Shown: positions 61,509-64,000 of the stretch, one piece after another | Position numbering within the stretch: position 1 is the stretch's first letter | Layout: each line of letters opens with the position of its first letter | Assembly (NCBI RefSeq): GCF_000233715.2 | Contig: NC_021184.1 | Coordinates: forward strand, 1,582,501 to 1,646,500 | Length of the DNA: 64,000 nucleotides | Source of the DNA: Desulfoscipio gibsoniae DSM 7213 | Lineage (GTDB): Bacteria; Bacillota; Desulfotomaculia; Desulfotomaculales; Desulfallaceae | Direction: 5' to 3' | Translations under genes and position numbers: made by a program | The notes under the pieces: generated by a model | The model's database searches: none | Told to the model about the DNA's origin: nothing | Seen by the model: only the letters and a program-made list of their open reading frames with translations

Positions 61509-62027
61509 ATGGATATAATGGATAAAATCCAAAGGTTAAAAGAGATCGGTAAATCCCAAAAAGAGAAGCAGAAATACATCAATGTCAGTGAGGTATTTTA
61601 CGTATGGGACATTTTGGTTGCGAAACTGGATATTATGGAGAGTGTGCAGATTATTGAAAACTTTACTAACGATAAAGATTTAAAATTTATTATAAGTAGA
61701 GTAGTCGATGTTCTGCAGTCAGGTATTGTGGATATGGAAGCCATAATGAAGTCTTATGGTATTCCCTTTCCTACTCGACCGCCGGCCGGTATCAATACTA
61801 CTACTATATTAGAGATCGTCACAGATTACAATGTATACCAAACCTTATTTGAAAGTATCCAATCATTTTTCCCCATACTTGCCAGTGGTTTTATGCAAAG
61901 CACTTCACCCAGAGTTAGAAAAGCAATTAAAAACCACTTACTCGTAACTATGGAATTACATGAATTACTTGTTGAATACGGCAAGATCAAGGGCTATTTA
62001 AACTTACCCCCTGTATATAATGCCTAA
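61509..62027 (+). CDS. DUF3231-like ferritin-fold protein, copy 1
   Basis: 172 residues, all-helical. EKQKYINVSEVFYVWDILVAKLD, the YGIPFPTRPP linker and a C-terminal ELHELLVEYGKIKGYLNLPPVY resemble the DUF3231 family common in spore-forming Firmicutes (two ferritin-like halves). No convincing di-metal site is visible. The next gene has the same length and the same motifs in the same positions, so the two arose by tandem duplication. Function unknown; a spore-related role is inferred from family distribution. Confidence 0.75.
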   Translation: MDIMDKIQRLKEIGKSQKEKQKYINVSEVFYVWDILVAKLDIMESVQIIENFTNDKDLKFIISRVVDVLQSGIVDMEAIMKSYGIPFPTRPPAGINTTTILEIVTDYNVYQTLFESIQSFFPILASGFMQSTSPRVRKAIKNHLLVTMELHELLVEYGKIKGYLNLPPVYNA

Positions 62028-62050
62028 TTTTTAAATATAAGGAGCAAGAT

Positions 62051-62569
62051 ATGAAAATATTAAAAAACTTGGAGAATTTAAGTAGGTTAGCTATGTCTAC
62101 GGGGGAAAAACAAAAGATGATAAATGTTAGCGAGGTATTTCATATCTGGAATCACTTGGTGCAAAGATATAATGTAATCCATTTGACAAGTTTATTGGAG
62201 GCTTTTGCCAGCGATCCGGATTTAAAGATAATTCTTGCCTCTGGGAAAAAAACCCTCGGTAAACATGTATCGTTGTTGGAGAAAGAGATGATGACATATG
62301 GGATACCATTGCCCAATAGACCACCAAAATATACGAAATCCACAGTAAATATAGAGGGTATCACAGATAGATTTATTTTCCGGCGCGTCCTTAGAGGTAT
62401 TCAGTCATTTTTGCCTACTCATACAATGGCCCTTATTCATAGTACTTCTCCACAAATTAGGGAGCTATTTATAACATTTTTAATAGAAGAATTAAAATTA
62501 TATGACGGGCTATTGGAATATGGTAAGCTAAAAACTTATGAAGTGAAACCACCAATTTATAAGATATAA
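62051..62569 (+). CDS. DUF3231-like ferritin-fold protein, copy 2
   Basis: 172 residues, matching copy 1 along its length: GEKQKMINVSEVFHIWNHLVQRY, YGIPLPNRPPKYTK, HSTSPQIRELF and LYDGLLEYGKLKTYEVKPPIY. AAGGAGCAAG precedes the ATG, 23 bases after copy 1, so they form an operon. By eye about 40 percent identical, so the duplication is old and both copies look intact. Confidence 0.75.
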   Translation: MKILKNLENLSRLAMSTGEKQKMINVSEVFHIWNHLVQRYNVIHLTSLLEAFASDPDLKIILASGKKTLGKHVSLLEKEMMTYGIPLPNRPPKYTKSTVNIEGITDRFIFRRVLRGIQSFLPTHTMALIHSTSPQIRELFITFLIEELKLYDGLLEYGKLKTYEVKPPIYKI

Positions 62570-62609
62570 TTTCGTTAAAGTAAGACATGGGAAGACATGG
62601 GTGGGAAGA

Positions 62610-62634
62610 AGACATGGGGACGTTTCATCTGTCT
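62610..62634. repeat. Related short repeat (AGACATGGGGACG variant)
   Basis: AGACATGGGGACG followed by TTTCATCTGTCT: same GGGGACG core as the dispersed family, with different complementary ends (AGACA/TGTCT). Partial copies GGGAAGACATGGG precede it. Confidence 0.5.
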
Positions 62635-62884
62635 CATATTTGTTCTTTCATTTTGATGAATTTCTTTAGAAATGATTAGTATTGATTTAATATAATGTGT
62701 AATTCATAATATATTGAAAAAACATAGCTTAATAACGAGGATAATTGTTCTAATTATAAAACGAATCCAATGGCGTCGTCCTTATCTTCCAGCTGAGAAA
62801 GATTCCCTTGACTTTATTTTGCAAATATTTTAAACTGTTAGCAGACTTGATATATTTTATACCCAATGCATAACTAAAAAAAAT

Positions 62885-62981
62885 TCTCCGAGTCTTGTGC
62901 ACCTGCAGACGTGATGTTATGGTGACCGGACCGGCAGGGTATATCGGGAAACCGGTATGCCTCCCATTGTGGAAAGGAGAG
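62885..62981 (+). promoter_or_regulatory. Moco-type riboswitch, copy 1
   Basis: Begins TCTCCGAG and ends GGAAAGGAGA, which pair as the closing stem; the conserved core GGGAAACCGG with ATGCCTCCCATT is intact, and CCTGC / GCAGG form the inner arm. These are the features I remember for the molybdenum-cofactor RNA motif (the tungsten-cofactor variant lacks one stem and cannot be excluded). It is followed after 25 bases by an intrinsic terminator. Confidence 0.8.
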
Positions 62982-63005
62982 GATTACCGGCCATTATTGA
63001 ACAGG

Positions 63006-63045
63006 CCCGGCATTGCCATTTTCACAATGCCGGGTTTTTATTTTT
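63006..63045 (+). terminator. Intrinsic terminator of riboswitch unit 1
   Basis: CCCGGCATTG (63006-63015) / CAATGCCGGG (63025-63034), nine-base loop, then TTTTTATTTTT. Confidence 0.85.
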
Positions 63046-63059
63046 AACAAATAAATATG

Positions 63060-63152
63060 TCTCCGAGCCTGGTGACCTAAGCCTAAAGTATGGTTGCCCG
63101 GCCGTTAGGGTGCATGGGGAAACCGGTGTGCCTCCCATTGCGGAAAGGAGAA
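63060..63152 (+). promoter_or_regulatory. Moco-type riboswitch, copy 2
   Basis: Same architecture as copy 1: TCTCCGAGCC at the start, GTGACCTAA with CCGTTAGGG as inner arm, the core GGGGAAACCGGTGTGCCTCCC, and GGAAAGGAGA closing the stem. Closer to the remembered consensus than copy 1. Followed by a second terminator, then by the unknown gene and modA. Confidence 0.85.
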
Positions 63153-63177
63153 TGCGAACTTTATCTTAGCTATAAAG

Positions 63178-63213
63178 CTTTGTCCTTTTTGCAATGGGCA
63201 AAGTTTTTTGTTT
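63178..63213 (+). terminator. Intrinsic terminator of riboswitch unit 2
   Basis: CTTTGTCC (63178-63185) / GGGCAAAG (63196-63203, one G-U pair), then TTTTTTGTTTT. It lies 17 bases before the ribosome site of the next gene. Confidence 0.75.
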
Positions 63214-63229
63214 TATGGGGGGTGACAAT

Positions 63230-63655
63230 ATGAAAGATAAGCTTGCTGACTTTCTGGTTTTATTTAGGCGTGGCGAGGTTACTGGAATACATAATGAAAG
63301 AGAGGTGGAACTTAAAGAAATATGTAATAGCCTGGGGGGGCTTGACTGCAAAGTTTTCGACCCTTATATGGTATATTCGAATTTGGCTGATAACGGACTC
63401 TTGGTAAGGGTTGAAACTAAAAACCTTGATGGATCTTGGAGTATATTATTTTACTATCCAGTTGAAAAAAATAAAAACAATGTTAGAAGAAAAATTATCA
63501 ACTTTATATTGGACGAGGCTAGATACGATTACAAGTTATTAAAGAATGGCTATGCTGTCGTCACTAACAATAATGGTAATCTTAAACTTGCCTGCATCAG
63601 GAAGAGCCTGAAAAATACCATTAAGAGAAAAAGAAAATTCTTAAACAAAGCTTAA
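63230..63655 (+). CDS. Unknown protein under Moco-riboswitch control
   Basis: Not recognised. 141 residues, soluble, with a basic C-terminus (KSLKNTIKRKRKFLNKA) and an N-terminal MKDKLADFLVLFRRGEVTG. The middle reads like a mixed alpha/beta fold (LLVRVETKNLDGSWSILFYY). GGGGGGTG seven bases before the ATG at 63230 decides the start. As the first gene after two Moco-type riboswitches and directly before modA it is likely connected with molybdenum or tungsten metabolism; a regulatory or cofactor-related role is inferred from position only. Confidence 0.7.
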   Translation: MKDKLADFLVLFRRGEVTGIHNEREVELKEICNSLGGLDCKVFDPYMVYSNLADNGLLVRVETKNLDGSWSILFYYPVEKNKNNVRRKIINFILDEARYDYKLLKNGYAVVTNNNGNLKLACIRKSLKNTIKRKRKFLNKA

Positions 63656-63729
63656 CAAGAGTTTGCTCCCAATAGGTTAAGACTGTCTGTACCCAGGTCT
63701 CTAGAAACTTATAGCATAGGAGTGGGAAA

Positions 63730-64000
63730 ATGTTCACCAAAGTACTTAAGAAACTGTTATGTACCTTGACAGCCATTATTGTTACCGGGTCGGTAATGTT
63801 ATTAAGCGGGTGCAGCACCAAAGAAGAACAGCTTAATGTCTATGTTGCAGCCGGGTTGAAAAAACCAATGGAGAAAGTGATTACCGCTTTTCAGGAAGAA
63901 ACAGGCGTTAAAGTTACTCCCAACTACGGGCCATCCGGTGGACTTTATACTCAAATTAAAGAAGGACAACCATGTGATTTATACTTTTCAGCCGACTGGT
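63730..64000 (+). CDS. modA: Molybdate ABC transporter substrate-binding protein, 3' end cut by window
   Basis: The first 90 residues of a ModA/WtpA-type lipoprotein: signal peptide with lipobox LLSGC (Cys about residue 28), then LNVYVAAGLKKPMEKV, FQEETGVKV, YGPSGGLYTQIKEGQPCDLYFSAD, the ligand-contact motifs of the family. It binds molybdate or tungstate outside the cell for an ABC importer whose permease and ATPase genes should follow the window. AGGAGTGGG precedes the ATG. Riboswitch control upstream supports the assignment. Confidence 0.9.
   Translation, partial: MFTKVLKKLLCTLTAIIVTGSVMLLSGCSTKEEQLNVYVAAGLKKPMEKVITAFQEETGVKVTPNYGPSGGLYTQIKEGQPCDLYFSADW

Follow-up and report, generated by a model that had tools for sequence, protein, structure and literature searches.

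Two P3-lacking RF01055 riboswitch units in series, probably responsive to tungsten cofactor, precede a conserved 141-residue protein gene and modA in Desulfoscipio gibsoniae

Why should one operon be preceded by two complete riboswitches? This question is raised by a locus of Desulfoscipio gibsoniae DSM 7213, which lies near the end of a stretch of 64,000 nucleotides (contig NC_021184.1, positions 1,582,501 to 1,646,500 of the forward strand; below, the window, to whose first letter the coordinates refer unless stated otherwise). Here, two copies of RF01055, the riboswitch motif for molybdenum cofactor (Moco) and tungsten cofactor (Wco, also Tuco), stand before a conserved gene for a protein of 141 amino acids and a modA-like gene. 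We consider it probable that they are two OFF riboswitches in series, which lack P3, most likely sense Wco, and control one transcript; this transcript would comprise the 141-residue gene, modA, modB, modC, and perhaps a DUF364 gene. The elements of the locus are as follows.

62874–62995, forward strand: aptamer of copy 1, P3-lacking (Wco/Tuco) form; RF01055, 64.3 bits; 5' strand of P1 at 62886
62965–62975, forward strand: predicted 5' half of the copy 1 antiterminator, from the P5 loop to the J strand; 11 contiguous pairs with 63019–63029
63003–63037, forward strand: terminator hairpin 1, 13 pairs, U-run to about 63044; z = -4.2
63049–63166, forward strand: aptamer of copy 2, P3-lacking form; RF01055, 67.2 bits; CCUAAG...UAUGG receptor
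63134–63149, forward strand: predicted 5' half of the copy 2 antiterminator (P5, J, 3' strand of P1); 16 pairs with 63183–63198
63174–63207, forward strand: terminator hairpin 2, 12 pairs, with U-run; from folding and a like hairpin in four congeners (G002–G005)
63230–63655, forward strand: conserved gene of unknown function, 141 amino acids; preceded directly by RF01055 in 16 of 17 genomes
63730–64000, forward strand: 5' part of a gene for a modA-like substrate-binding lipoprotein, which extends past the window; TIGR01256, 117.4 bits, cut-off 62.5

A covariance search matched both copies to RF01055 over the full length of the model (positions 1–135), with E-values of 5.2e-14 for copy 1 and 7.2e-15 for copy 2. 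Both scores are far above the gathering score of 36 bits, and the two copies are the sole Rfam matches above gathering within the window. This scoring had been proposed as a check by an earlier sequence-only reading, and it bears out the two Moco-type motifs which that reading had recognized by their CTCCGAG (starting at 62886 and 63061). Since folding alone places the aptamers only modestly above shuffled sequences (z = -1.9 for copy 1, z = -1.6 for copy 2), their identification relies on the covariance score. Overall, the copies are 67–68% identical; their 3' halves form a direct repeat of 63 nucleotides (83% identical, spacing 171), and the gap of 53 nucleotides between the model ends contains most of terminator hairpin 1. 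Both carry the GAAA tetraloop on P4 (GGAAAC) together with its receptor in the P2 bulge, which reads CCUAAG...UAUGG in copy 2 and, as a variant, CCUGCAG...UAUGG in copy 1. Such variants are usual, since the exact CCUAAG...UAUGG form occurs in only 21 of 141 unique aptamers. Copy 1 had been called the more diverged one and had, on this ground, been credited with a possibly different ligand. It does have the lower score and the variant receptor, but the difference is weak, as the scores are 2.9 bits apart in a genome whose 17 matches span 39–71 bits. The scores give no backing to a different ligand; the clearer difference between the copies lies in their expression platforms.

Each aptamer is followed by a hairpin with a U-run of its own, as had been seen from the letters, and two complete aptamer-terminator units thus lie in series on one strand ahead of the 141-residue gene and modA. 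The segment of hairpin 1 (62990–63045) folds with -20.3 kcal/mol, a value reached by none of 200 shuffled sequences. Neither hairpin was listed by a simple terminator scan, because their loops comprise 9–10 nucleotides and the scan is limited to loops of 3–8. In both units, the aptamer strand from P5 to the 3' side of P1 is complementary to the loop and 3' arm of the terminator that follows, and an antiterminator is predicted for each copy. With cofactor bound, P1 would form and the terminator would be free to fold; without cofactor, the P5 loop, J, and the 3' strand of P1 would pair with the terminator loop and 3' arm, and termination would be blocked. Expression would need read-through at both switches; consequently, the genes would be on only when the cofactor is scarce. 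A single transcript is suggested for both copies because no promoter-like site was listed between them by a scan of little power, which found six sites in 62550–63800 where 4.4 are expected by chance.

The units differ in their predicted folding without ligand. For copy 1, the antiterminator has a probability of 0.94–0.98 in transcripts ending at 63028–63031; from an end at 63034 onwards the terminator reaches at least 0.94, and the antiterminator is lost once the 3' arm is complete. At full length, the copy 1 terminator has a probability of about 1, and a forced antiterminator is less stable by 7.5 kcal/mol. For copy 2, in contrast, the antiterminator has a mean pair probability of 0.98–0.99 in transcripts ending at 63197–63212, and the terminator stays below 1e-5; when P1 (CTCC/GGAG) is held, the predicted structure contains the terminator. 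The orthologues of copy 2 in the four congeners fold likewise, with terminator probabilities of 0.01–0.06. According to these models, copy 2 would read through by default, whereas copy 1 would terminate by default unless caught early, and may act as a kinetic switch or as a weak attenuator. Among the tandem pairs of this genome, no pattern of stronger terminators in the first or the second copies was visible by eye. A terminator-like hairpin accompanies 136 aptamers from a set of 142 sites (141 unique, 140 parsed; loci L016 and L017 left out); for these, the complementarity between aptamer and terminator was compared. The mean energy for the pairing of the aptamer 3' strand with the terminator loop and arm was -11.25 kcal/mol for matched partners, -9.58 kcal/mol for partners swapped between loci, and -8.04 kcal/mol for shuffled ones.

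With respect to the ligand, the covariance alignment has the P3 positions deleted in both copies, and an inspection of the letters found that the other 15 RF01055 matches of the genome lack P3 as well. In its main text, the study that described the two RNA forms (Regulski 2008, PMC2408646) links P3-lacking RNAs of the Moco family to Wco metabolism and reports a near-perfect correspondence between form and use of Moco or Tuco. The rule is a correlation; the E. coli RNA lost its regulation when P3 was deleted, with no switch in specificity (PMC2408646, main text). D. gibsoniae carries several tungsten markers. These are an aldehyde ferredoxin oxidoreductase (AOR; Pfam PF01314, PF02730), two TupA-like proteins, for which the model of tungstate-binding TupA is the sole NCBIfam match at E 1e-10 (237 and 192 bits, below the cut-off of 400), and bamB of a tungsten-type benzoyl-CoA reductase, as reported in PMC4148979. 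One of the TupA-like genes has an RF01055 match 265 nucleotides upstream. Given that both copies lack P3 and that the genome has these markers, Wco is the likelier ligand of both copies on the published P3 correlation.

Several results weigh against this interpretation or parts of it. The segment of hairpin 2 (63150–63215) folds with only -14.2 kcal/mol (z = -1.7, 12 of 200 shuffles as good); as it is weak by folding alone, its support comes from the like hairpin behind the orthologous aptamer in the four congeners. In copy 2, the antiterminator is favoured by 9.9 kcal/mol over the state combining P1 and terminator, a difference that ligand and folding order would need to make up. Copy 1 favours the terminator at equilibrium even without ligand, and may hardly switch. 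Note, however, that without ligand the terminator also prevails in 93 of the 128 units covered by the equilibrium model, and that more than five antiterminator pairs are predicted in 33. Equilibrium folding is thus a poor judge and copy 1 is ordinary in this respect; copy 2 and its four congener orthologues belong to the minority. The p-values of the complementarity comparison (5e-8 and 7e-23) are not independent, because its rows are related, and the step that located the hairpins was run without a separate control. In addition, the binding protein of the operon scores as ModA and not as WtpA or TupA, and for the second TupA-like gene the nearest RF01055 match seen lies downstream. Ligand and OFF control are predictions.

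Some of these results fit other explanations as well. Copy 2 might switch alone; copy 1, as an almost constitutive attenuator or a unit in decay, would then reduce the amount of polymerase that reaches copy 2. The dominance of the full-length copy 1 terminator without ligand (probability about 1, ahead of the antiterminator by 7.5 kcal/mol), the variant tetraloop receptor, and the single, directly upstream aptamer before the gene in the four congeners would agree with this; we nevertheless regard it as unlikely, given that copy 1 is full length with 64.3 bits, that its antiterminator dominates at transcript ends 63028–63031, and that the terminator is favoured at equilibrium in the majority of units. 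Comparably improbable, in our estimate, is that both copies sense Moco instead of Wco, or do not discriminate. For this, one can cite the binding protein, which lies above the cut-off of the modA model, and the correlative nature of the P3 rule with the E. coli deletion that gave no specificity switch; the missing P3 of both copies, the AOR and TupA-like genes of the genome, and the near-perfect correspondence of form and cofactor (all P3 statements as in the main text of PMC2408646) speak against it.

We give hardly any credence to a logic with two ligands, Moco for one copy and Wco for the other, which the sequence-only reading had put forward. With an identity of 67–68%, the copies do differ in receptor and platform, but neither has P3, the sole feature separating the published Moco and Wco forms, and the form they share is the one associated with Tuco. 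It is also very improbable that the locus consists of two transcription units, in which copy 2 has a promoter of its own in the gap and no series action occurs. The gap is AT-rich outside the hairpin, and promoter scans have little power here; yet the scan for promoter-like sites listed none between the copies, and the U-run of hairpin 1 ends about 16 nucleotides before P1 of copy 2, which leaves room for a promoter only inside the terminator. For two Wco-sensing OFF switches acting in series, a steeper response is plausible, in keeping with how such tandems have been interpreted in print.

Two complete aptamer-terminator units in series are reportedly also present in the tandem thiamine pyrophosphate riboswitches of Welz and Breaker (2007), which differ in ligand and aptamer. 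Tandems of P3-lacking units, with a terminator for each, were described in 2008, and a 2022 review lists tandem riboswitches for Moco and for Wco. The main text of PMC2408646 describes tandem riboswitches of the Moco family in Syntrophomonas wolfei and Geobacter metallireducens, among them an S. wolfei triplet without P3, in which the first two members are followed by terminators; these tandems precede genes for molybdopterin synthesis and for molybdate or tungstate transport as well as unknown genes, and were read as giving more digital control. Our locus has the aptamer core, the GAAA tetraloop, the P3-lacking subtype, and the terminator platforms in common with this riboswitch. It differs from the tandems described there in being a doublet with an unnamed 141-residue gene in front of modABC; moreover, we propose an antiterminator, a word absent from that main text. 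The review (PMC9481103) calls series aptamers for the same ligand with a platform each "pseudo-cooperative"; for Moco, its tandems comprise 13 doublets and 2 triplets, and Wco tandems are listed as well. The locus is alike in having series aptamers with platforms of their own; with an unnamed family and modABC as targets, it is set apart from those listed by target names only.

The less expected part, and the one worth following, is the 141-residue gene of the regulon. Within its class, 17 of 113 genomes carry the family, and so do 8 of 398 genomes drawn from the phylum, all eight from the same order. RF01055 is located directly upstream of the family gene in 16 of the 17 genomes, D. gibsoniae included; the distance from its end to the start of the gene, or of the matched portion of the gene, ranges from -3 to 293 nucleotides. 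In the exception (G026), a piece of an IS21 IstB gene lies directly upstream, about 1 kb from the end of the contig. The riboswitch is the clearest trait common to the loci of the family, as the neighbours vary: modABC is found in D. gibsoniae, G010, and G048, a tupA-like gene in G002–G005 and G051, and an aldehyde dehydrogenase gene just downstream in G026, G038, and G048. In six of the 17 genomes, the riboswitch directly upstream is a tandem; these are D. gibsoniae and five members of a single genus, g17 (G038, G048, G074, G075, and G078). The end of the aptamer lies only a few bases from the gene in G033 and G043, where by inspection the 3' strand of P1 could serve as the ribosome-binding site; control would then have been kept with a changed mechanism. 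At L077:4899-6969, L078:996-2977, and L081:4246-6233, which represent three genomes of one genus, an aldehyde dehydrogenase (PF00171) gene closely follows the family gene. Under an OFF Wco switch, such an enzyme could provide tungsten-free aldehyde oxidation at low cofactor.

The protein itself, alone or together with 11 homologues, had no Pfam or NCBIfam match above cut-off; the best NCBIfam match below cut-off (DnaA, E 0.004, one of 12 members) looks like chance. A profile search of solved structures with the family gave nothing below E 0.37, and a structure prediction made with two sequences reached a mean pLDDT (predicted local distance difference test) of 39.8. A winged-helix fold, guessed from the order of helices and strands in this poor model, was rejected, as a profile comparison gave the ArsR and MarR sets probabilities of 0.4% and 0.8%, with shuffled and reversed controls at 0.0–0.6%. 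Neither the locus nor the family was named in the literature covered, which consisted of titles and abstract openings with subscription papers mostly outside. Beyond the window, modA is followed by modB-like, modC-like, and DUF4213/DUF364 genes (PF04016, PF13938); the WtpB/WtpC and ModB/ModC models match the modB-like and modC-like products below their cut-offs. Directly upstream of the riboswitch pair, at 61509–62569, two adjoining genes of 172 amino acids each match DUF3231, the second above the Pfam cut-off and the first just below it.

How did the pair arise? Copy 2 is 80–83% identical to the aptamer preceding the same gene in G002–G005 and was grouped with it at bootstrap values of 99 and 94 in two trees, which identifies it by sequence as the orthologue of that aptamer. 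(The second tree was computed without the long branches G048_modA, own_L001, own_L002, and own_L015; L016 and L017 are in neither tree.) Copy 1 resembles several other aptamers at least as closely as it does copy 2. Holding the two copies together, as expected for a local duplication, does not give the best tree and costs 24 log units, with p = 0.109 in the approximately unbiased (AU) test. The AU test gave p = 0.102 for copy 1 with the upstream copies of g17, p = 0.196 and p = 0.202 for copy 2 and its congeners with the downstream and the upstream g17 copies, respectively, and p = 0.331 for copy 1 as one clade with the aptamers of the tupA-like gene. As these tests reject neither a local duplication nor shared ancestry with g17, an independent origin of the two copies is a suggestion only. 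Within g17, one clade (98/97) unites the upstream copies of four genomes and a second (99/98) the downstream copies of three, so that the two copies appear to have long remained distinct; the copies of G074 and the downstream copy of G048 fall nearby without support. The upstream g17 copy groups with the single riboswitches before the family gene in G033 and G043.

Two other histories were set aside. The four congeners carry the order aptamer, tupA-like gene, aptamer, 141-residue gene, and deletion of the tupA-like gene between two units could have left a pair; in D. gibsoniae, however, the tupA-like gene and its aptamer sit elsewhere in the genome. Likewise, copy 1 does not appear to be a former modABC riboswitch. 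Among the 20 relatives searched, only G002 has a close relative of modA (54% identical, the others about 30%); this gene has an RF01055 match of its own upstream, and this aptamer is not close to copy 1.

RF01055 is present in 58 of 60 relatives. At least 18 tight tandem pairs, with gaps of 35–123 nucleotides and both members on the same strand, occur in 13 genomes. Three of them belong to D. gibsoniae (near 243.6, 875.6, and 1645.4 kb of the genome), where a looser pair with a gap of 309 nucleotides is located near 272 kb. The pair at 243.6 kb (L049:7584-7945) precedes a MoCF_biosynth gene; the one at 875.6 kb (L051:7592-7881) precedes a binding-protein gene (PF13531) of another uptake locus. 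G002, G003, and G004 have 31, 26, and 24 matches, respectively, in genomes of 2.8–3.4 Mb, and the highest number per genome stated in the main text of the 2008 study was at least 15 (PMC2408646). A different arrangement was observed at L016:1463-1609 (genome 2965290-2965398, reverse strand), where a variant with a short P2 (40.2 bits) lies upstream of the AOR gene. The 3' strand of its P1 forms a strong predicted hairpin with the following UCUUCUCC and a U-run (z = -4.9); as an aptamer holding P1 would exclude this terminator, the variant looks like an ON switch for the tungsten enzyme, opposite to the uptake genes. A near copy with changed letters in the 5' strand of P1 is found at L017/L056 (genome 2988831-2988939, reverse strand); the same AOR-like gene start follows, but no long AOR reading frame, and it is perhaps the remnant of a duplicated unit.

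We tentatively suggest, at somewhat less than even odds, that the 141-residue family is a dedicated part of tungsten or molybdenum homeostasis in this bacterial class, made only at low Wco, and that its riboswitch was doubled more than once, by adding copy 1 upstream of the original copy 2 in D. gibsoniae and a downstream copy in g17. If so, the local copies would have been paired for complementary regimes, one of default read-through and one of default termination. Interest in tandem riboswitches centres on what is gained from a second copy; here, similar aptamers are combined in a clean pair with platforms differing in predicted energetics, and such pairs recur in this bacterial group. Studying the role of the 141-residue family would test what cells need when tungsten cofactor is short.
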